Assembly: GCF_011769525.1 (NCBI RefSeq)
Contig: NZ_CP050440.1
Span: forward strand, 7,922,001-7,986,000
Direction of reading: 5' to 3'
DNA length: 64,000 nucleotides
Origin: Tolypothrix sp. PCC 7910
GTDB taxonomy: Bacteria > Cyanobacteriota > Cyanobacteriia > Cyanobacteriales > Nostocaceae
Shown here: positions 11,464 to 60,945 of the stretch, piece after piece
How positions within the stretch are numbered: position 1 is the stretch's first letter
Layout of the letters: every line of letters begins with the position of its first letter
Position numbers and translations under genes: made by a program
The notes under the pieces: generated by a model
Databases searched by the model: none
The model's input: the letters and a program-made list of their open reading frames with translations, nothing else
Told to the model about the DNA's origin: nothing

Positions 11464-12186
11464 ATGCCTTCTGCGTATCTTTTGGTATCTCATGGAAGTC
11501 GCGATCCGCGTCCAGAAATTGCTATGCAGCAGTTGGCGAGGTTGATGCGTGACAAGCTACGAAGCAGCTACAACCAGGAGCCTTTGTTAGATGTAGCTTA
11601 CTTAGAGCTGAGTCCGGAACCTTTGCACGAGCAGATTAAAAAATTTGGTGAAAAGGCTTTGGCATCTGGTTGCGATCGCATCAATATATTACCTATATTT
11701 CTGTTGCCGGGAGTTCATGTGATGAAAGATATTCCCGATGAAATTGCTCTGGCTCAACAGGCTTTAGGTCAAGATATGAAGATTGAGCTAAAACCATATT
11801 TAGGTAGTAACCCCAACTTACAAACTTTACTCGCTAAACAAATAGCTGAAAAAAAGACAGCTGCATGGATTTTGTTGGCTCATGGAAGTCGCCGTCCTAA
11901 TTCTTTAGAGCCTGTGGAAGCAATGGCGCAAAATTTGGCAGCAATTGCAGCTTATTGGGCTGTACCTCCTAGTTTAGAATCGCGGGTGAAAGAGTTAATT
12001 GCTGTGAGTAAGTGGGAGATTGCGATTTTGCCATATTTTTTATTCGCTGGTGGCATAACCGATGCGATCGCGCAATCAATAGAAACGTTAAAATTACAGT
12101 TTCCTCTGGTAAATTTTCACATGGCCCAACCCCTAGGAGCCAGTACAGAATTAGCCGAGCTAATTGGGGATTTAATAGATAGATGA
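11464..12186 (+). CDS. Sirohydrochlorin chelatase, long CbiX/SirB type
   Basis: The enzyme inserts Fe2+ (SirB role) or Co2+ (CbiX role) into sirohydrochlorin in the cytoplasm. The protein of about 240 residues has two repeated half-domains, each opening with a catalytic-His motif: YLLVSHGSRDPR near the start and WILLAHGSRRPN at about residue 140. That is the two-domain long form. I chose ATG at 11464; a TTG two codons earlier is also open. The last codons overlap cobA by four bases (ATGA), a strong sign of translational coupling. With CobA it would turn uroporphyrinogen III into siroheme, the cofactor of nitrite and sulfite reductases. Whether iron or cobalt is the real metal cannot be told from sequence. 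Confidence 0.88.
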   Translation: MPSAYLLVSHGSRDPRPEIAMQQLARLMRDKLRSSYNQEPLLDVAYLELSPEPLHEQIKKFGEKALASGCDRINILPIFLLPGVHVMKDIPDEIALAQQALGQDMKIELKPYLGSNPNLQTLLAKQIAEKKTAAWILLAHGSRRPNSLEPVEAMAQNLAAIAAYWAVPPSLESRVKELIAVSKWEIAILPYFLFAGGITDAIAQSIETLKLQFPLVNFHMAQPLGASTELAELIGDLIDR

Positions 12187-12965
12187 ACCGCACAGCAATA
12201 CAACAGGAGAGCAAATTTTTGGGCAAGGTTTATTTAGTAGGTGCGGGGCCAGGAGATCCTGGACTGATGACACTCAAAGGCAAAGGTTTACTGGAATGTG
12301 CCGATGTTGTCATCTATGATGCTTTGGTAAGTCCAGCAATCCTGGAGATGATCAACCCCCAAGCAGAAAAAATTAATGCGGGTAAGCGGATGGGGCGACA
12401 TTCTCTGTTGCAAGATGTTACTACCCAACTGCTAATTGAAAAAGCACAAGATAATGCGATTGTGGTGCGACTTAAAGGGGGCGATCCGTTTATTTTCGGT
12501 CGTGGTGGCGAAGAAATGGCGGAATTGGTAGCCGCTGGTATTGATGTGGAAGTTGTGCCAGGAATTACATCGGGTATTGCGGCTCCAGCCTATGCAGGTA
12601 TACCTTTAACCCATCGCTTGTATAGTTCTTCAGTTACCTTTGTTACTGGTCATGAATCAGTAGGTAAGTATCGACCCGCAGTCAATTGGGGTGCGATCGC
12701 TCACGGTTCGGAAACCATAGTAATTTATATGGGGATTCACAATCTGCCCTATATTATTGAACAGTTGACTGGGGCTGGTTTGAGTTTAGAAACACCAATT
12801 GCCTTAGTGCGTTGGGGTACGCGACCAGAGCAGGAAGAATTAATTGGTACAATTGCCACAATAATTGAGCAAGTAGAAAAAACTGGATTTGAAGCACCTG
12901 CGATCGCAGTTATTGGCTCTGTAGTCAATTTGCACGATATTCTATCTGGTTGTCGTCCAGTTTGA
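12183..12965 (+). CDS. cobA: Uroporphyrinogen-III C-methyltransferase (SUMT)
   Basis: SUMT methylates uroporphyrinogen III twice with S-adenosylmethionine to give precorrin-2, the branch point to siroheme and cobalamin. The 260-residue protein has the family landmarks: VYLVGAGPGDPGLMTLKG near the N-terminus, VVRLKGGDPFIFGRGGEE at about 96-113, and VEVVPGITSGIAAPAYAGIPLTHR. It is a stand-alone SUMT without the CysG dehydrogenase/chelatase part. Its ATG overlaps the cbiX-like stop (ATGA). Upstream lies the kinase-GUN4 gene on the same strand, 160 bases before cbiX. Confidence 0.95.
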   Translation: MNRTAIQQESKFLGKVYLVGAGPGDPGLMTLKGKGLLECADVVIYDALVSPAILEMINPQAEKINAGKRMGRHSLLQDVTTQLLIEKAQDNAIVVRLKGGDPFIFGRGGEEMAELVAAGIDVEVVPGITSGIAAPAYAGIPLTHRLYSSSVTFVTGHESVGKYRPAVNWGAIAHGSETIVIYMGIHNLPYIIEQLTGAGLSLETPIALVRWGTRPEQEELIGTIATIIEQVEKTGFEAPAIAVIGSVVNLHDILSGCRPV

Positions 12966-49892: not shown

Positions 49893-51308
49893 ATGTTAGC
49901 GAAAGGTAGCGGAATTATGCTTTGTATAGAAGATCTGCTGACTCTGGAACTATTTCAAACTTTGCCACGGAACCGTCTGGATTGGATATGCGATCGCTCT
50001 CAAATACTTGACCTCAGTACTGATGAAATATTGGTATCCGAAGGCGATCCTGCAAGTGGCTTTTTTATTATGTTGTCTGGGCGCATGGGATTGACTAGGC
50101 GCAGTGATGGTATGGAAATGCCTATCGGACAGCACGAAGCACCTAGCTTTTTTGGGGAAATTCCCATACTGACAGGCGATCCTAACCCAGTGACAGTACG
50201 CGCCCTCACTGACTGTCATCTATATAAACTATCAAGTGAAGATTTCCTGACATTGCTGCATGAGTGTCGCAACTTTGAGCAGGTAATTTTTAAAACTGTT
50301 GCCAAGCGATCGCGTGGATTAGAATCTTTCATCCGCAATCGGGAGAAAATGGCAGCTTTAGGCACTCTAGCAGCAGGACTAGCCCACGAACTCAATAATC
50401 CAGCCGCCGCCTTGGTTCGCGCTTTGCGAGATATCACCCCAGCATTACTAGAACTGCAACGCATGAATCTGGTGTATGGACAGCATCAAGTTGATGCAGA
50501 ACACACTACACAATGGATTAAAGCGCGTGATGAGGGGTATGAGACAATTACCCACAAGCGGGTTGATCCGATGACTTTGAGCGATCGCGAAGATGAATTG
50601 CTTGATTGGTTAGAAGATTATGGTGTGGAGGATGCTTGGAAACTAGCTGGGCCTCTAGCCGAAGGGGGTGTCGCAATTGCCACACTAGAAGAATTAACTG
50701 AACGCTGGCAGGATGATAAGACAGAAATGGGTAGCATGGGCTTGCGTTGGTTAGCCCTTTCCTTTGAAGTCATGTCTATGATTACCAGTGGCTTACGCGG
50801 TGCAGAAAGAATTGCTGAACTGGTGCAATCGATGAAGTCTTATTCCCATTTAGATCAGGGCGCAAGACAACTAGTTGATGTGCATGAAGGTTTAGAAGAT
50901 ACCCTACGATTATTCTCATATAAGCTGAAGCAAGGCGTAGAAATCCGCAGATCCTATAGTCTGGAAATGCCTAAAATTTTAGCTTATGGCAGCGAATTAA
51001 ATCAGGTTTGGACTAATTTGATTGACAATGCCATTGATGCAATGGATGAAAAAGGCATATTAGAAATTATTACTACATCGTATAGCGATCGCATCGAAAT
51101 CCAAATTACAGACTCTGGATCGGGTATTCCTCAAGAGATTAAATCACGAATTTTCGAGCCATTTTTCACAACCAAAGCTGTTGGTAAAGGTTCCGGCTTA
51201 GGCTTAGAAGTAGTACGCCGAATCGTAGAAATCCGCCACCAAGGAAGTATTACAGTAGATTCCCAACCAGGGAAAACGCAATTTACTATTTGTCTCCCGA
51301 TTGCTTGA
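49893..51308 (+). CDS. Histidine kinase with N-terminal cyclic-nucleotide-binding-type domain
   Basis: Residues about 12-135 form a CNB/Crp-type sensor domain (LFQTLPRNRLDWICDRSQIL, EGDPASGFFIMLSGRMGL, APSFFGEIPILTGDPNPVTV). The kinase follows, with phospho-acceptor His165 in LAAGLAHELNNPAAAL and the catalytic boxes NQVWTNLIDNAIDAMDEKG, ITDSGSGIP and GKGSGLGLEVVRRI. There is no membrane segment, so it senses a cytoplasmic signal; whether the CNB domain binds cAMP is not shown. A 24-base shorter start (ATG 49917) is possible. No cognate response regulator is adjacent. Confidence 0.92.
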   Translation: MLAKGSGIMLCIEDLLTLELFQTLPRNRLDWICDRSQILDLSTDEILVSEGDPASGFFIMLSGRMGLTRRSDGMEMPIGQHEAPSFFGEIPILTGDPNPVTVRALTDCHLYKLSSEDFLTLLHECRNFEQVIFKTVAKRSRGLESFIRNREKMAALGTLAAGLAHELNNPAAALVRALRDITPALLELQRMNLVYGQHQVDAEHTTQWIKARDEGYETITHKRVDPMTLSDREDELLDWLEDYGVEDAWKLAGPLAEGGVAIATLEELTERWQDDKTEMGSMGLRWLALSFEVMSMITSGLRGAERIAELVQSMKSYSHLDQGARQLVDVHEGLEDTLRLFSYKLKQGVEIRRSYSLEMPKILAYGSELNQVWTNLIDNAIDAMDEKGILEIITTSYSDRIEIQITDSGSGIPQEIKSRIFEPFFTTKAVGKGSGLGLEVVRRIVEIRHQGSITVDSQPGKTQFTICLPIA

Positions 51309-52908: not shown

Positions 52909-53359
52909 TAAAGCTCCTTAAATAAATACTTCAGTAAGTCAGCAATTGAACATAACAATATTCAAAAAGATAAATTGAAAAAGCTTTACTTTTTCTTCCT
53001 TAAAACTTTATATATTGCTTGAATCAAGTGTACTTACTTACGAAAAATCAATTACATATTAAGCATAAAATGAAACTTGCTAATAGTAAAGTAAAACCTG
53101 AACAACGGATAGTTTAAAAATATAATTTCAGGAGCTAACAAATTTACTAAAAAATTCAAACTTTTCGTGACTAAATCACTCTGATAAAAGAAAAATAGCG
53201 TTCCATATTTGCGCTGAATTTACCAATTTCTAGAATTAGTAAATTCAGGGATGTCATTATAATAGATTTGCGCTAGAAATGTGGAGCTTATACTAAAATT
53301 TTCAACTGATGCCAAAAACCATAATTATATTGTTAAAACAAGATTCTGGGGCGGTCTAA
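52909..53359. other. AT-rich divergent intergenic region
   Basis: About 450 bases between the RidA gene and the anti-sigma-like gene. It should hold both promoters. No gene or repeat is recognised. Confidence 0.45.
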
Positions 53360-53830
53360 ATGTCATCGGAAACCAGTTTCCTGATTTATAACTCTAGTTT
53401 GCAAGTTGCCAGTGATATTAATGCAATGACAACAGTATTAGAGTGGTTTGATCAATTTAATTGCTCACCGTTAACTGATCGGGTATGGATAGAAGGACAA
53501 ACAGCTTTGATTGAAGGCTTTACAAATGTAGTTCGCCATGCCCATAAACACCTTAGTCCTCAAACTCCTATTGATTTAACAGTCCAAATTTCCGCTGATT
53601 ATTTTCAGCTTTGTATCTGGGATCAAGGCGATATTTTTAATTTAGAAGTGGCTTTAGAAAATCTCAGCCAACAAACCAGCGATTATACATTCAATCCTTT
53701 AAATCATGAAGCTCATTGGGGGTGCATCTTCTTACTTAAGCTGAGAAACAAATATAGCTGGAAAATTAGCTATACCCGCGAATCAGACGCTAGAAACTGT
53801 TTATTGCTAAAGAAAAAAATAGTTGCTTAA
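53360..53830 (+). CDS. RsbW/SpoIIAB-like ATPase (anti-sigma factor or serine kinase)
   Basis: This 156-residue protein is one HATPase_c_2 domain. The N box is IEGFTNVVRHAHKHLSPQTP and the G1 box WDQGDIFN; the end reads SDARNCLLLKKKIVA, as in the paralogue at 38763. The glycine-rich lid seen there (GGYGWFLL) is replaced by HWGCIFLLKL. In partner-switching systems such a protein either binds a sigma factor or phosphorylates the STAS antagonist. The STAS gene follows 64 bases downstream on the same strand. Confidence 0.87.
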   Translation: MSSETSFLIYNSSLQVASDINAMTTVLEWFDQFNCSPLTDRVWIEGQTALIEGFTNVVRHAHKHLSPQTPIDLTVQISADYFQLCIWDQGDIFNLEVALENLSQQTSDYTFNPLNHEAHWGCIFLLKLRNKYSWKISYTRESDARNCLLLKKKIVA

Positions 53831-53894
53831 ATAGATTACTAGCTGATTTAGTCTTGTCATTTATTTTTACCGAAACATTTTTGTAACTAAAATT

Positions 53895-54224
53895 ATGGCT
53901 TACCAATTAAAAGTAATTCAGCCTCAGGGAACTTTTGATGGAAGAAATGGGAGAAAAGTTTGTGAGGAAATGGTCAAAATTATGGGTTCGGGTGTCAAAA
54001 CTATTTTGATTGATTTTCAATATATTACTTTTATGGATAGTTCTGGATTTGGTACCTTGTTATTGACACTAAAAACTGTGCGGCAACAACAGGGTAGGCT
54101 GGTACTGTGTTCCATAAACGAGCAAATTAAAATGATTCTAGATCTGAGTGATACAACACAGGCTTTTGAAGTATTTCCCAACCAAGCATCATTTATGCAG
54201 GAAGTTACTCAGCACCAAACTTGA
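53895..54224 (+). CDS. STAS-domain anti-anti-sigma factor
   Basis: The 109-residue protein is a stand-alone STAS domain like SpoIIAA/RsbV. The phosphorylation-site region FMDSSGFGTLLLTLK carries the conserved Ser pair, preceded by the strand VKTILIDFQYIT. Phosphorylation by the RsbW-like kinase would inactivate it, and a SpoIIE-type phosphatase would reactivate it. Both such genes flank it: the ATPase upstream, and the phosphatase gene convergent with a 20-base 3' overlap. That arrangement strongly suggests a complete partner switch. Confidence 0.92.
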   Translation: MAYQLKVIQPQGTFDGRNGRKVCEEMVKIMGSGVKTILIDFQYITFMDSSGFGTLLLTLKTVRQQQGRLVLCSINEQIKMILDLSDTTQAFEVFPNQASFMQEVTQHQT

Positions 54225-55395
54225 TTTCAATTAAAGAGCAGTCATCTGTAAATATTTGACTGCCCGTACTAATTTTTACATATTCTAAAATTGAGTCTAT
54301 ATCTAATTGTAATGATTGATGATTTTCAGTTAATAAATCGATAAAACCATTCAAGTTCAACAGTAAACCATCACGCTTTTCAACTTCATAAACTCCATCA
54401 CTAAAAACATAAAGTTTACTAGTAGGTTTAACATCACATACATCATTATAATATTTTGGTTCGGGAGACACGCCAATTGGTAGACTACGGGTAACGAGTT
54501 TTTTCACCTCTAAACCAGTATCACATCCAGCAGATTTAGAAAGCATTAAAGCCGGAGGGTGCCCAGCGCTAGCGTATGTTAGTTGATAAGAACTACGGTT
54601 AAAAACTCCATACCAAATGGTAAAGTACTGAAAATTTTGCTGATCCATTTGAAAGAAATTATTCAAATCTTGCAGCACTTGACATGGATCATAAAGACTA
54701 GCATGGGGCAAAGAATGCGATCGCAACATATTATGCACCGAAATTGAAGGCAGCGCCGCAGCTAATCCATGTCCAGAAACATCTAGGAGATAAATTACCA
54801 AGTGATCGTCATCTAGCCAGTAGTAATCAAAGCAATCGCCACCCAATTGACTAGAGGGTAAAAATCTCGAGTTGATTGTGACTAATCCCGTCATCGGTGC
54901 AGGTAACAGAGATTTGACGTAATCAGCAGCTTCGCTCAACTCTGTTTCTAAAAGCTGTTTTTGGATCTGTAAATCTTTAGCTAATTTCTGCAGTTCTTGA
55001 TTAGCTTGATATAGCCTCAATCCGGCTCTGACTCTGGCTTTTAATTCGCTCACCTCAATAGGTTTACTCAAAAAATCATCTGCACCAGTATCTAAACCTT
55101 GTACTCTGTCTTCAACTGCTTTGCGTGATGTTAGCAGAATAAAAAAGCTATTAGATAGCGATGGTTCAGATTTAATTTTGCGACATACTTCTAAGCCATC
55201 CATTTCCTCCATTTGCCAATCACAAATGATGAGTGCTGGACGGTATTTTTCAGCTTGTTCTAGTCCCTGTTCACCACTAGAGGCAAGAATAACTTCATAT
55301 TCCTGATCTTGCAGGGCTTGCCTCAAAATCAGTTGGATCACCCGATCATCATCAATTACTAATATTTTGATTTTGGTATTAGATATTTCATCCAT
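54205..55395 (-). CDS. Response regulator with SpoIIE/RsbU-type PP2C phosphatase domain
   Basis: Residues about 10-125 form a receiver (KILVIDDDRVIQLIL, acceptor Asp in LIICDWQMEEMDG, Lys in DFLSKPIEV). A coiled linker (about 135-175) leads to a SpoIIE-type PP2C phosphatase (about 190-395: LGGDCFDYYWLDDDHLVIYL, LDVSGHGLAAALPS, TYASAGHPPALML, SDGVYEVE). It should dephosphorylate a STAS antagonist when the receiver is phosphorylated. The open frame continues to 55533, but that extension translates repeat DNA including a palindrome; ATG 55395 gives a normal receiver start. It lies downstream of the hybrid kinase on the same strand. Confidence 0.92.
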   Translation of the reverse strand: MDEISNTKIKILVIDDDRVIQLILRQALQDQEYEVILASSGEQGLEQAEKYRPALIICDWQMEEMDGLEVCRKIKSEPSLSNSFFILLTSRKAVEDRVQGLDTGADDFLSKPIEVSELKARVRAGLRLYQANQELQKLAKDLQIQKQLLETELSEAADYVKSLLPAPMTGLVTINSRFLPSSQLGGDCFDYYWLDDDHLVIYLLDVSGHGLAAALPSISVHNMLRSHSLPHASLYDPCQVLQDLNNFFQMDQQNFQYFTIWYGVFNRSSYQLTYASAGHPPALMLSKSAGCDTGLEVKKLVTRSLPIGVSPEPKYYNDVCDVKPTSKLYVFSDGVYEVEKRDGLLLNLNGFIDLLTENHQSLQLDIDSILEYVKISTGSQIFTDDCSLIEIKFGAE

Positions 55396-55485
55396 TTGTG
55401 TATTTGGGACTGGGAACTGGGTAATGGGTAATGAGTAATGGGGAATAAGGAAATAAGAATAATCAATAATCTTTGACTCTTGTAC

Positions 55486-55505
55486 AGACGCGATTAATCG
55501 CGTCT
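55486..55505. repeat. AGACGCGATTAATCGCGTCT palindrome (copy 4)
   Basis: Identical to the copy at 3682. It lies between the hybrid kinase gene and the receiver-phosphatase gene, flanked by degenerate heptamers (TGGGTAATGGGTAATGAG). Confidence 0.85.
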
Positions 55506-55602
55506 CTTTGACTCTTGACAAATCTTCCATCATTCCTGGCGTTTGTGGGATGATGGCTGGAAAAGTTGCTGAGTAACGAGTAAAAATACTAATTTCTAGT
55601 CT

Positions 55603-58600
55603 TTACTTAGTTAGTATTCCCTGAAGTACTGCGATCGCACTCTGATATTCAGTTTCTAGTTGATTAACTAGCCCAGATAGTTGCTCCCATGATTGCTCTT
55701 TGGCAGATGTTTCTAAGGTTTCACAAATTTTGCCCAAATTAACAGCACCAATACTAACACTAGGCGATCGCAAAGCATGAGCTGCTTTTTGTAACTTGGC
55801 GCGTTCTTGTTGAACCAGAGCATCTTTCATTGTCTGGATTCTTGTGGGGGTATCTTCTAGGTAAACCTCGATTAGTTCCGCGACTAGGCGATCGCCTTCA
55901 CTACCGCCTAGGATTTGCAATTCTTGCAGAATACTTAAATCAATAGCCGCGACTAAATTCATCTCCAGGGGTGGAGGCGGTAAGACTAACTCAGCAGGTA
56001 GAGGAGTAGGCACAGAAGGCTGGGAAACTTGATAATGCTGAGTCACAAACTTGTTGAGAACTGCTTCTAGCGCCTCTAAATGAATCGGCTTACTGACATA
56101 ATCATCCATACCCACAGATAAGCATTCTTGCCTATCTTCAGGTCGAGCATGGGCAGTCATGGCAATTATCCAAGGTTGAGTCGCCTGTGAAAAATCCCCA
56201 CGAATCCGGGAAGTTGTCTCCCAGCCGTCCATTTCTGGCATTTGGATGTCCATAAACACAACATCATAGAGTTGCCGTTGCAAGGATTCTAAAGCTTCTC
56301 GTCCATTATTGGCGACATCTGCCCGATAACCTAGCCGATCCAACATCTTGAGGGCTATTTTCTGATTCACCAACACATCCTCAACCAGCAGAATCTTCAA
56401 GTTTGAGCTTTGAGCAACCTGGGTATCAATTGTTGAGATATGGGATGCAGACAAGCGGGAGTAAGAAGGTATATTAACCTTGCCATCAACCAGGCGTGTA
56501 GACCAGCTACCACGGACAATTTGTAGTAATGTGTTATGCAACTGATACTGGCGCACAGGCTTATTCACAAAGGCAGTAAACTCAGAAGCTATCTCCTTCA
56601 CCTCTAAAGTTTGCTTGCTTTTGGCACTCAACATTACCAAAGCTAAATCCTGCTGTTTGTGTAAACTGCGAATTTTACTCGTGAGTTCGAGGGTGTTAAT
56701 GTTAGGGCTATCAATATCTAATATCGCTATGTCAAAAGGATCTTGCCGCAGTAAATCTAGTGCAGCATCACTCGATTCTACAGCTTGGACATCGACTCCT
56801 AAAGTCTGAAGTTGCCAAGTTAAGCATTTCTTTAAATTATTATTATTGGCTACTAATATTAATTGCTTGCCTACCAGTTCTGGATACAAGAAAGTGCTTT
56901 CGACAGTAGAAGGATCGACTTGTAATTTGGCTGTGAAATAGAAAGTAGAACCTCTACCTGCTTCACTTTCTACCCACATTCTGCCGCCCATAATTTCGCT
57001 CAGACGCTTGCTAATAGCTAATCCCAAGCCAGTACCGCCATAACGTCGAGCCATAGAAGCATCAACCTGGCTAAAAGGTTTGAATAGCCGATGTAAGCGA
57101 TCGCCTGGGATACCAATACCTGTATCAGTGACGGCAAATTGAAATTCGTAATACACATGATCGGGATTTTTGCCTATCCGTTTCGGTATCTGTCTTTGCA
57201 CGGCGATGGAGACAACTATTTCACCATTATTGGTGAATTTGACGGCATTGCTAACTAAATTCCAAAGAATTTGCCGCAGACGCGTAATATCACCAATAAT
57301 TAAAGTTGGCGTATGCCATGCCAGTTGATACATCAATTCAATACCTTTGGCAGCAGCCTGAGGCGCTAGTAAATCTAAAGCTTCTTCCACACAGACTTGC
57401 AAGTCAAAGGGCTGTTCTTCTAACTCTAAATTGTTAGACTCAATTTTAGAGAAGTCAAGAATATCATTAATAATTGTCATTAACGCATCGCCACTATTGC
57501 GGATAGTTTCCACATAGTCGCGTTGCTCTGGTTTAAGGGGAGTATCTAACAACAATCCCGTCATTCCAATCACCGCATTCATTGGAGTACGAATTTCATG
57601 GCTCATGGTGGCGAGGAAATTACTCTTCGCCATATTCGCTGTTTCTGCAGCTTGCTTAGCAATAGTTAACTCTTCATTCTGCTGTGCTAACAAATTGGCT
57701 TGATGAATTTCTTGATCAAGCAATTGTGCTTGAGTGAGAGCAATACCCATTTGATCTGCAAGGTGGGTGAGCAAATCTAACTCTAATTCCGTCCATTCTC
57801 TGGGGCGATCGCACTGATGAATGATTAATAATCCCCATAAATCTTCTCTAAGCAGAATTGGCACAACTAGATTCGCCTTGACTGGACAATCCTTTACGCA
57901 GCAGGGTTTAACTTCCGTCTGTGCCAAATCGGAAATGATCGTTATTTGCCCTTGACGATAAAATTCTAAGTATTTCTGCTGCAGACAAGTATCGCAAATA
58001 TCGTTGTCTAAAATAGCTGCCCACTCGGGTACTACAGCTTCTTGAACAACTTTGCCAGAACCATCAGGCTTAATTTGGAATATCAGGACGCGATCGGCCT
58101 GTAAAATTCGTTGTACTTCTGTTACCGTTGTCTGGAGAATTTTTTCCCATTGCAAGGACTGACGGATTTCTTCTGTAATTTGCTTGAGCAGCAGTACACG
58201 TTGATATTGCTGCTGTAGTGCGGCTTCTGCGTTTTTGCGTTCGGTAATATCGAGATGTGTTCCTACCATTCTCAAAGGTTTTCCTTGAGAATTACGGCTT
58301 ACCAATTTACCCCGATCTAGAATCCACTTCCATGCTCCAGATTTCGTTAAAAAGCGGATTTCTGACTCATAAACAGGGGTTCTACCCTTGAAGTGGGCTA
58401 TGAGTCGTTGGCGCATTATCGGTAGATCATCTGGATGAATCAACCTATTTTTGACTTTAATAGTATTTTCGATTTCTTCTGGCTCATAGCCGAGCATTGT
58501 CGCCCAGCGTGGGCTACGATACACTTCTCCAGTTACTAAATTCCAATCCCAAAGCCCTTCGTCTACCGAATCCAGAGCCAATTTTAAACGTTCTTCACTC

Positions 58601-59496
58601 AGTCGGAGAGCATTTTCCGATTGTTTGCGTAAAGTGATATCGCTGTATTTCCACAAATGACCATAAAATTTTTGATCGACAACAATCGGAATGTACTCTT
58701 GTTCAAAAGTCCTTCCATCCAAAAGTTGCCATTCTTGATTGAGAACTATTTCACCCTGGCTGACGATCTCATCTAAGCGTTGGGCAAATTTTTCTGGTTC
58801 TGTAAATAGTTGTTTGGCTGTTTGTGCTACTTGGCGACAGTCGATTCCTACTAAAGCTTCTGGGGATTGGGGAATACCAAATTGATGACACAATTCCCGA
58901 TTTGCTAGTACAACCTGTCGGTTATCGTCTTCTAATAGCACACCCAGCTGTAAACTATCAATTAGCGTTCGCAATCGAGATGCTGTAGCTCTTAATTCAG
59001 CGCGCTGAGATGTGAGTCTTGTAGTGAGTTTTTGGGCATCTGTCAGGGCTGAATTCTTGGCTTGTAAAAGAAATAAATAATCAGAAACAGAATCGTATAG
59101 AGGAAAATCGTTAAGGGTGAGATCGAGCTTTTTGATATTAGCAATATCAGTAATCCAAGGAGAACCTAAAAAGAGCAGATGATTTGATTTCTCGAGATAT
59201 ACCATCTGCCCCTTGAGCTGCATTTCTCTGTGATGAGATTGCAACAAAAATAGCGATCGCGTTTGCTGACAAATGGCTGTAAAGTTACTTGGACATTTGG
59301 GGCGATTAATTTGAAAATGTTCTTCTAGGGAACTATCTAAAATTGCGATCGGTTCTAAAATGCGCTGCAGCACCTTACCCACCTGGACAATCTTCATATG
59401 TTGATCGATTACCAGATGAAAGGGAAATAATGCGGCAATTTGTTCAGGAGGAAGACTAAATTGTTCTAACTCAGTAGCCCGATCATTTGTCATAGG
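55603..59496 (-). CDS. HNOBA-type hybrid histidine kinase (HNOBA-PAS-PAS-GAF-HisKA-HATPase-REC-REC-HPt)
   Basis: The protein is 1297 residues from ATG 59496, which overlaps the H-NOX gene by 14 bases; the frame could begin at 59571, but that seems unlikely. In order: an HNOBA-like domain (about 20-150: [40 protein letters not shown]), two PAS domains (about 172-290 and 300-420), and a GAF domain (about 445-590) with clustered cysteines (CDTC, CCVKDC). HisKA (H632 in [10 protein letters not shown]) and HATPase (to about 860) follow. The first receiver (about 875-995) lacks the acidic pair; the second (about 1032-1150) is complete with D1082. An HPt domain ends the protein (H1239 in AAHALRSPS). 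It has no membrane segment and is likely a cytoplasmic phosphorelay hub for H-NOX. Confidence 0.92.
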
Positions 59497-60052
59497 TGTG
59501 AGAATTGTCGTATTCAACAGAGAAGATATCGTGGTTAGCTCCTTGTTCCTTAAAACTGGTTTGGGTAACATCTACCTTGGTACCAAAGCGTTTTCCTAAA
59601 CCGTGGAGTAACCCAATTACCATAGGAGCCAACCCCATCCTTGTAGATTGGTAATGCAGCTCAACAGACTTATCTGTGGCTTGTTCGCAGTCAAAAGATG
59701 GTGGACGCAGTTGAGAGAAACTCAAGCCTACCCGGGCATGGAGATTGTCGAGGTTTTCCATAAACTGAGGTAAGGAATCACCAGCACTGTCTAATAAGTC
59801 ACCATAGCCTTCTTCTGCTGTGTATGTTACCCAGTATTCTCCAAAAGCCATCAGCAGTTCTTCTGGTGGTGTTTTCAACACCTCACTTGCAGCTGCGACT
59901 AAACGATAGGTAACATCATCAGAGTAACAATCCATACCTATAAAAAAGTCTATGTCTTCCAGGTCAGCTTTCTCCTTGATGGTTTCCCAGGTATCTTCAC
60001 CGTGGTATTTGCAAATCATGTCTTGAACTGCTTTGTTAACTAGACCATACAT
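59483..60052 (-). CDS. H-NOX haem nitric-oxide-sensing protein
   Basis: H-NOX binds haem and senses NO, passing the signal to a partner enzyme. Starting at ATG 60052 ([12 protein letters not shown]), which has AGGAG eight bases upstream, the protein is 189 residues. Proximal haem ligand His105 ([10 protein letters not shown]) and the propionate-binding Y134-x-S136-x-R138 (HYQSTR) fall exactly at the numbers known for Nostoc H-NOX. Trp74 and Met144 of the distal pocket are also as in that protein. It lacks the distal tyrosine of O2-binding members, which favours NO over O2. A 45-base longer frame exists upstream. The hybrid kinase overlaps its 3' end. Confidence 0.95.
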
Positions 60053-60945
60053 CGGCTTAACTCCTGGATACAAAAAATACTTTAATTTGGATGCCATAAA
60101 TCGTCAGAATAGCAGACAGACTATTGGTTTTTTGACGATAAGTTGGGAATAAAAAATTAACATAACCACTGTTTTATAAGCTTTTCAGCTTTGTTGATAG
60201 ACATTGCTGCTCATGGTTTTACTTCAACATTTTCAGTGTATATACTTAAAAATATTTGACTGGCATTGATATGTTATTTTATACAAAAAACTTGCGATCG
60301 CCTACTTCTTTCACGTAGAAGTGTACCTAACCTTTCCCTTTCACCTAACAACACTTGACTTAATTTGCTTTCAGCACGCTTATCTGAAAAGGAAGCAGGG
60401 AACTATAGAGAATCGAAAAATCAAATCTGATCATGAAAAAAATATAGGAATAATGGTGCCGTACTCTCAGCGTTCACGCACCATACATCTATTTAAAAAA
60501 TTTGATATGAGTTTTGAAATTCCTTTTTGAAGCTTTTAACAGAAAACTGCAACCAATTAGATTTATTAATTTTTCCCTGTTCCCTGTTCCCTTCTCAGGC
60601 AATAATTTCATTAAGCTAATCAAATAACGACATATTAATAAATAATATTTATTTAATTTATTTAGCTCTCAATGTGTGCAATTGCATCAAACAATACAGA
60701 TAATCATTTAATATCAATCTACTAAGATCATGTAGCGTATTTATCAGTATATTTTAAAGATATAAATTAAGAATTAAATTGTGTATATTTTGATTAAAAT
60801 TAGCTTGTGATTTCTAGAATTGACGCAGTAAAGTACTTTAAAGTTGAAGCAAATTACCTGATGAGATAAATTGCAGCTACACTGACCATCTCTAGGACAA
60901 AATACTTGCAACTATGTGTACACCAATCATTGCAACCGTGTTGAG
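60053..60945. other. Divergent intergenic region upstream of H-NOX and the TPR gene
   Basis: Almost 900 bases. It must hold the promoter of the H-NOX/kinase unit. A 69-codon frame at 60321-60530 has no recognisable features. The stretch 60600-60850 is very AT-rich. No NtcA-like or other named site was identified. Confidence 0.5.

Follow-up and report, generated by a model that had tools for sequence, protein, structure and literature searches.

Nitric oxide (NO) sensing and partner switching appear to be joined in one locus of the cyanobacterium Tolypothrix sp. PCC 7910. The locus lies at 53360..60052 of the window analysed here, a stretch of 64,000 nucleotides (NZ_CP050440.1, positions 7,922,001 to 7,986,000). 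It holds five genes, encoding an H-NOX (haem NO-binding) protein, a hybrid histidine kinase, a PP2C phosphatase with a receiver domain, a free-standing STAS protein and an RsbW-like ATPase. On balance these probably form a single signalling unit, with NO as its input and a partner switch as its output; the ancestral target of the switch would be the initiation of exopolysaccharide synthesis and not a sigma factor. The same parts and motifs recur in other genomes, where they are inherited together with some exceptions, and where the RsbW-like gene is paired with a gene encoding a STAS domain fused to a phosphoglycosyl transferase (STAS-PGT).

The sequence-only reading of the window had placed the five genes here and given each its domains; all five are present and every domain is backed by Pfam profile searches, which were used for domain assignment throughout. 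Curated-family scores are from the RsbW equivalog and TIGR00377 models. Relatives come from a scan of named genomes for H-NOX homologues, which gave 176 relatives, and the best 80 H-NOX loci were taken with flanks of up to 10 kb per side (some shorter at contig ends); L-numbers denote loci fetched from other genomes and G-numbers denote genomes, the window genome being G000. As far as can be judged from sequence, key residues across the five genes are largely intact.

The H-NOX gene (59483..60052, minus strand) encodes 189 amino acids, with a further in-frame ATG upstream at 60097. The protein is assigned as an H-NOX by its HNOB domain (E 3e-52), proximal histidine and YxSxR motif, and in the PDB it matches Alr2278 (E 1.9e-100). 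His105, Pro118 and Y134-x-S136-x-R138 are present; all four named residues are invariant in 16/16 aligned cyanobacterial H-NOX proteins. The kinase gene (55603..59493, minus strand) starts within the 3' end of the H-NOX gene, giving an overlap of 11 bases (59483-59493); an in-frame ATG at 59571 would give a longer protein. Its domains run HNOBA-PAS-PAS-GAF-HisKA-HATPase-degenerate receiver-receiver-HPt, where HPt is a histidine phosphotransfer domain and the HNOBA match has an E-value of 2.8e-32. The haem ligand, the YxSxR motif, the HNOBA N-terminus, the HPt tail and the gene overlap had all been recognised before and are confirmed. The first receiver is degenerate, with VANNNN at the position of the acidic pair, so the phosphorelay within the kinase likely uses the second, passing from HisKA His632 to Asp1082 and on to HPt His1239.

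The next gene (54205..55395, minus strand) encodes the receiver-SpoIIE phosphatase (Response_reg E 2e-28, SpoIIE E 3e-39), which carries the PP2C motifs GGDCFD, DVSGHG, SDG and DD, with the metal-site aspartates present. The open frame begins at 55533, but the start at 55395 (MDEISNTKIKILVIDDD) agrees with L043 and with the ranges matched in relatives, and is probably the true one. The 46 codons of the 5' extension (55396-55533) are a low-complexity stretch, SYFLIPHYSLPITQFPVPNTQ, which is probably a repeat and not protein. The STAS gene (53895..54224, plus strand; Pfam STAS E 4.5e-14) is convergent with the phosphatase gene. Its product belongs to the anti-sigma-factor-antagonist family, scoring 57.5 bits against TIGR00377 (cut-off 53.45), and its profile matches SpoIIAA-type structures. 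It has D48-S49-S50, and the DSSG motif is kept in 13/13 rows of an alignment made without L046; the serine is putatively phosphorylatable. The 3' ends of the two genes overlap by exactly 20 bases (54205..54224), as had been noted earlier along with the place of the phosphatase gene next to the kinase. The same 20-base overlap is found in L032, L033, L034, L043 and L046, and one of 14 bases in L040; in the other loci measured the two genes are separated by a gap or differently ordered.

The fifth gene (53360..53830, plus strand) encodes a GHKL serine kinase/ATPase (HATPase_c_2 E 8e-13) with a profile match to RsbW 6m36 (E 8.5e-5). The N-box residues E52/N56 and D-x-G are present. The AlphaFold model is poor (mean predicted local distance difference test score, pLDDT, 61), and its weak best match is SpoIIAB 1tid (E 2e-3, template modelling score 0.41-0.46). 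The protein falls far under the curated RsbW equivalog cut-off (26.6 vs 145 bits) and is for this reason termed RsbW-like and not an RsbW equivalog. About 110 bases 5' of its start lies an inverted repeat of 15 bases whose loop is 5 bases long (53214-53248); L032 and L033 have an exact 12-base piece of it in the corresponding position, and L034 has none.

Co-inheritance was assessed in 192 Nostocaceae genomes. Window-type H-NOX (H-NOX-A) is defined by at least 73% identity and an intact gene, and the corresponding RsbW-like set (RsbW-A) is bounded by a clean gap in E-values (1.5e-69 vs 8e-30). H-NOX-A occurs in 20 genomes, RsbW-A in 18, the phosphatase of this type (PP2C-A) in 19 and block-type STAS-PGT in 14. 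H-NOX-A and RsbW-A are found together in 13/192 genomes where 1.9 are expected (Fisher p 1e-11, uncorrected for phylogeny); this value overstates the association, since the genomes are related. The two genes lie no more than 13 kb apart in 12/13 of these genomes. PP2C-A is present in 18/18 RsbW-A genomes, always within 7.5 kb, and the gene set recurs in picocyanobacteria. That the five genes belong together is thus supported by the sequence comparison, with exceptions, and the expectation that the STAS/ATPase pair would be conserved with the H-NOX and kinase genes holds in Nostocaceae with those exceptions. Chance adjacency of the five genes was considered and rejected on account of their linkage in many genomes, although related genomes are not independent.

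A likely output of the switch is suggested by a sixth gene. Directly upstream of RsbW-A in 14/18 genomes is a gene whose product joins a SpoIIAA-like STAS domain to a WbaP/PglC-like phosphoglycosyl transferase of the initiating kind; by coordinates, block-type STAS-PGT adjoins RsbW-A on the same strand in 14/14 genomes that have it. Pfam finds STAS and Bac_transf domains (L043, from Nostoc sp. UCD121). In profile searches with seven of these proteins the STAS half matches SpoIIAA structures and the other half WbaP/PglC, with E-values of 1e-44 to 1e-33. The D-S-S motif is kept in 12/12 rows of one alignment and 7/7 of another. In most loci seen, STAS-PGT lies within a polysaccharide cluster; L044 has few recognisable sugar genes beside the pair. 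In L035 the neighbours identified by Pfam are a pyruvyl transferase, a family 4 glycosyltransferase (GT4), a Wzx-type flippase, a GT2 enzyme, Alg14-like and Alg13-like (GT28 C-terminal) proteins and a Wza-like polysaccharide-export protein, and other loci carry the same sugar genes by similarity. Genes labelled Wzz- or Wzy-like have no Pfam match, and these labels are guesses based on gene position and size. In L035 and L036 the RsbW, STAS, H-NOX, kinase and PP2C genes and all the sugar genes except the export gene form one run on one strand. Picocyanobacteria are similar: STAS-PGT is on the contig of the H-NOX block in 6/6 genomes, about 15-17 kb from the STAS gene of the block, and RsbW directly follows it in 5/6; in the remaining genome a contig end interrupts the locus. 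A seventh genome of picocyanobacterial type, G119, has a like arrangement with a shortened PGT frame.

The position of the switch in relatives, beside the initiating enzyme in a sugar cluster, suggests that it controls that enzyme and not a factor for gene expression. The sequence-only reading had proposed a chain from NO to a sigma factor. The linkage of its parts stands, by co-occurrence in Nostocaceae and picocyanobacteria; its sigma-factor end is not supported, the conserved partner of RsbW being STAS-PGT. A scan limited to five flanking genes of the window and ten genes of the cluster found no sigma-factor domain. An anti-sigma role for the RsbW-like protein, in a chain that ends in NO-controlled transcription through an alternative sigma factor, is therefore quite improbable. 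The fold family and the partner-switch gene set do speak for such an end, and the passages of PMC6495340 that concern the related switch HmpU-W leave open its possible action on sigma factors; the score far under the RsbW equivalog cut-off speaks against it.

The pairing of RsbW with PGT extends beyond Nostocaceae. RsbW was compared across 291 genomes of the class, and the best 56 matches were taken in order, down to E 2.3e-32. Among the 25 best (E no higher than 7.3e-36), a PGT gene adjoins in 20; the other five are the window, G168, G016 and the contig-end cases G288 and G270. Among the next 31, a PGT gene adjoins in one (L248), L233 has a non-adjoining STAS-PGT in the stretch fetched, and 22 have a PP2C gene in the stretch. 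These adjacency counts suggest two neat RsbW sub-families, which the tree does not support. There the window RsbW groups with those of group A, the picocyanobacteria, L182 and L189 (87 in the Shimodaira-Hasegawa-like approximate likelihood ratio test, SH-aLRT), all of them PGT-linked except the window clade. Two further PGT-linked proteins, of L187 and L188, are placed close to the type-II cassettes, so that PGT linkage does not define one clade. In L186, L192, L216 and L217 the genes for PP2C, STAS, STAS-PGT and RsbW occur together, and the stretch fetched contains neither H-NOX nor HNOBA; the sensor thus seems to be the variable part. A recurrent cassette of hybrid kinase, RsbW, PP2C and STAS, with no HNOBA or PGT gene seen beside it, is found in L205, L209, L210, L211 and L191. 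Nostocaceae also have a separate convergent PP2C-STAS pair (L200-L204).

On the sensor side, an unrooted H-NOX tree of 79 loci and the window has three groups: group A (16 loci and the window), picocyanobacteria (5 rows) and group B (58 rows). Groups A and picocyanobacteria are split from B with an SH-aLRT of 93. A gene matching HNOBA is present in 80/80 loci, including L078, which gave no H-NOX frame above threshold. In group A, a full-length or nearly full-length PP2C gene lies in the flank of 12/16 loci (partial in L042, none in L041, L045 and L064), and both STAS and RsbW in 10/16, with L038 having both just outside. All six picocyanobacterial loci have PP2C and STAS in the flank, the PP2C frame of L078 being in pieces. 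Neither STAS nor RsbW was found in the flank of any of the 58 group-B loci. A strict motif search finds HPt in 25/29 group-A and picocyanobacterial kinase rows, or 24/28 distinct ones as L038 and L190 represent a single locus, and its misses in L040, L177 and L078 may be false; the same search finds it in 0/60 group-B HNOBA kinases. Pfam does not find Hpt in the L212 kinase. The idea that HPt is confined to kinases beside PP2C was rejected: L041, L045 and L064 keep HPt with no PP2C gene within 10 kb, and not every group-A HPt kinase has the switch alongside. Broken or fragmentary H-NOX genes resembling group A are found at G445:C1:612514-614241, G416:C1:5479915-5480467 and G319:C1:2573533-2573622.

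Several observations weigh against a single unit with a polysaccharide target. RsbW-A is absent from 7/20 H-NOX-A genomes (G303, G394, G414, G422, G436, G443 and G464), of which G443 keeps PP2C-A; the kinases of three of the seven are those of L041, L045 and L064, which keep HPt. Intact H-NOX-A is absent from 5/18 RsbW-A genomes (G107, G129, G408, G444 and G445). In three of these, G129, G107 and G408 (L175, L176 and L177), the polysaccharide cluster is flanked by an HNOBA hybrid kinase gene that has no H-NOX gene upstream, and an H-NOX of 58-60% identity is encoded elsewhere in the genome. G444 has a different frame at the expected place of the kinase, and G445 has a split H-NOX gene. The H-NOX gene of G252 lies 1.4 Mb away from its switch, and a search beside its RsbW gene found no free-standing STAS gene. 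RsbW of picocyanobacteria is about 11-17 kb from the free STAS gene, and the PP2C tree, which includes the outlier row L039_b, leaves the orthology of their PP2C unsettled. L046 has a tandem STAS protein in one frame (11771-12457) with DSAG twice in place of DSSG. The G2 box of the window ATPase is reduced to HWG, so its kinase activity is uncertain. The patchy spread of the genes fits co-transfer of a gene cluster equally well as shared function.

Some of these exceptions would be expected if the genes were neighbours without a single chain. The H-NOX and kinase would then regulate something else, PP2C, STAS, RsbW and PGT would respond to other kinases, and the polysaccharide island would move as a whole. 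The genomes that have H-NOX-A or RsbW-A without the other are in its favour, as are the four loci with the switch and STAS-PGT but no H-NOX or HNOBA gene, and the separate PP2C-STAS pairs. However, the HNOBA kinase and PP2C stay together where H-NOX has gone (L175-L177), L035 and L036 keep a one-strand order, and the switch-bearing H-NOX group is set apart by the HPt motif of its kinases. An absence of any joint chain is accordingly judged unlikely, and a single unit remains the favoured reading.

The window's own clade also argues against a polysaccharide target. No block-type STAS-PGT was found in the window genome or in three relatives of its genus (4/4), and their RsbW has no adjoining STAS-PGT. 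The best Wzx match in this clade is 48-55% identical, compared with 85-87% in the cluster-bearing genomes G252 and G357. The five genes are nonetheless in use, as indicated by ratios of nonsynonymous to synonymous substitution rates (dN/dS) of 0.07-0.18 between the window and the three relatives, a sign of purifying selection; these ratios and the open frames reject a decayed remnant. With STAS-PGT absent yet the five genes under purifying selection, the target of the switch in this clade is presumably encoded elsewhere. It is perhaps a STAS-PGT paralogue that is near-universal in the family, with matches of E up to 1e-110 in 191/192 Nostocaceae genomes. In the window genome this paralogue is at G000:C1:7661950-7662951 (L128 11918-12955), 313 kb away, with DSSG intact. 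It is not a relocated block-type gene: the STAS-PGT rows listed have 57-62% identity to the block type, except for the 14 block-type proteins at 76-86%, and at 62% the window-genome copy sits with the near-universal paralogue. No RsbW gene was found in the 19.5 kb around the copy in the window genome, nor any above threshold in the stretches fetched for L128 and L206-L208.

Selection on a switch that lacks a linked STAS-PGT fits another possibility, in which the free STAS protein is itself the effector, acting on another protein as HmpV might; RsbW and PP2C would set its phosphorylation, and the STAS-PGT linkage would be a side branch. According to PMC6495340, the Hmp switch has the STAS protein HmpV as its output, and the effector of HmpV is undefined. 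The cassettes of kinase, RsbW, PP2C and STAS with no PGT seen beside them are also consistent with this arrangement. It leaves unexplained the PGT gene beside RsbW in 20/25 of the best class-wide matches, including genomes without H-NOX nearby, and is considered rather unlikely.

If the five genes do form one unit acting on STAS-PGT, H-NOX would bind NO and alter the activity of the kinase through its HNOBA domain, as in known H-NOX/kinase pairs. Phosphate would pass from His632 to Asp1082, to His1239 of HPt and then to the PP2C receiver. Phosphorylated PP2C would act on the free STAS protein by removing the phosphate from its serine, by analogy with RsbU and SpoIIE systems. The unphosphorylated STAS protein would capture the RsbW-like kinase, releasing STAS-PGT so that repeat-unit synthesis could start; free RsbW would bind or phosphorylate STAS-PGT and shut the transferase off, and the sign of this step could be reversed. 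H-NOX/kinase pairs exist in which NO inhibits the kinase. On that pattern NO would lower PP2C activity, STAS would stay phosphorylated, RsbW would remain free, STAS-PGT would stop and less polymer would be made; the opposite sign is also possible. A gas sensor would in this way be coupled directly to an enzyme initiating a sugar polymer, with no transcription step. More tentatively, the first committed step of exopolysaccharide synthesis in cyanobacteria may be set post-translationally by an RsbW-like kinase acting on STAS-PGT, driven by NO and H-NOX in one branch, and the near-universal paralogue could be the effector of Hmp; this wider scheme is possible but doubtful. The paralogue is in any case a candidate effector for other partner switches such as Hmp, and cyanobacterial STAS outputs whose effector is undefined may act through STAS-PGT.

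The sensor is related to a protein of known structure. Alr2278 (PDB 2o09 and others) is of the same family and sub-group as the window H-NOX and has served as a model for structural and haem studies; no pathway or physiological role for it was found in the literature searched. PMC6963936, where it touches on this protein, cites a paper on whether Alr2278 senses NO or works as a redox switch. The window H-NOX is 79% identical to the L038 protein of Nostoc parmelioides FACHB-3921 (G451), which differs from Alr2278 at 8/188 positions (96% identical, counted from the alignment). In G451 the PP2C gene is 5 kb from the H-NOX gene, RsbW 12.6 kb and STAS-PGT 13.6 kb. The proposed unit thus offers a testable pathway for an H-NOX type with many solved structures.

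Related systems share some of these parts. In Pseudomonas aeruginosa, HptB acts through HsbR, a receiver-PP2C protein, on HsbA, a STAS protein, in a partner switch whose output is flagellar control. We know of no locus that holds these together with the sensor NosP and the kinase NahK. In the relevant part of PMC11784011, NosP is a haem NO sensor with a co-cistronic kinase feeding an HPt protein, which resembles the arrangement here; NosP is not an H-NOX, and the output given there includes rsmY, not a sugar transferase. The same part of that source shows NO controlling biofilms in other bacteria by other routes, NosP/NahK among them. A route through H-NOX and STAS-PGT, if true, would be separate from control of that type. 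HmpU-HmpV-HmpW of Nostoc punctiforme is a cyanobacterial Rsb-like switch described for hormogonium development, with no H-NOX mentioned in the relevant sections of PMC6495340.

RsbU/RsbV/RsbW and SpoIIE/SpoIIAA/SpoIIAB of Bacillus subtilis use the same PP2C, STAS and GHKL kinase families. There the partner-switch kinase holds a sigma factor. In the cyanobacterial loci, by contrast, a STAS-fused transferase is linked and no sigma factor is linked among the genes scanned. The STAS-tagged initiating sugar transferase is likely the ancestral output of the switch, and the system is therefore proposed as a variant of partner switching. STAS-PGT shares its catalytic domain with the phosphoglycosyl transferases WbaP and PglC, to which it adds the N-terminal STAS domain; a literature search with most subscription journals outside its scope gave nothing relevant on STAS joined to a phosphoglycosyl or sugar transferase. 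SypE and SypA of Vibrio fischeri are partner-switch proteins that control polysaccharide and not a sigma factor; to our knowledge that module has no STAS-PGT fusion and no H-NOX. H-NOX gene neighbourhoods are said to have been treated by Iyer in 2003, and HmpU-W reportedly by Riley in 2018; the H-NOX/PP2C linkage may have been noticed before in the literature.

Further signalling proteins are encoded nearby. Very large proteins adjoin the locus in L042 (14932-20355) and L175 (17649-19904), and also in L038, L045 and L046; read by eye, they resemble fusions of Ser/Thr kinase, ATPase, GAF and histidine kinase domains. The window itself encodes, at 49893-51308, a protein in which a cyclic-nucleotide-binding domain precedes a histidine-kinase ATPase domain.

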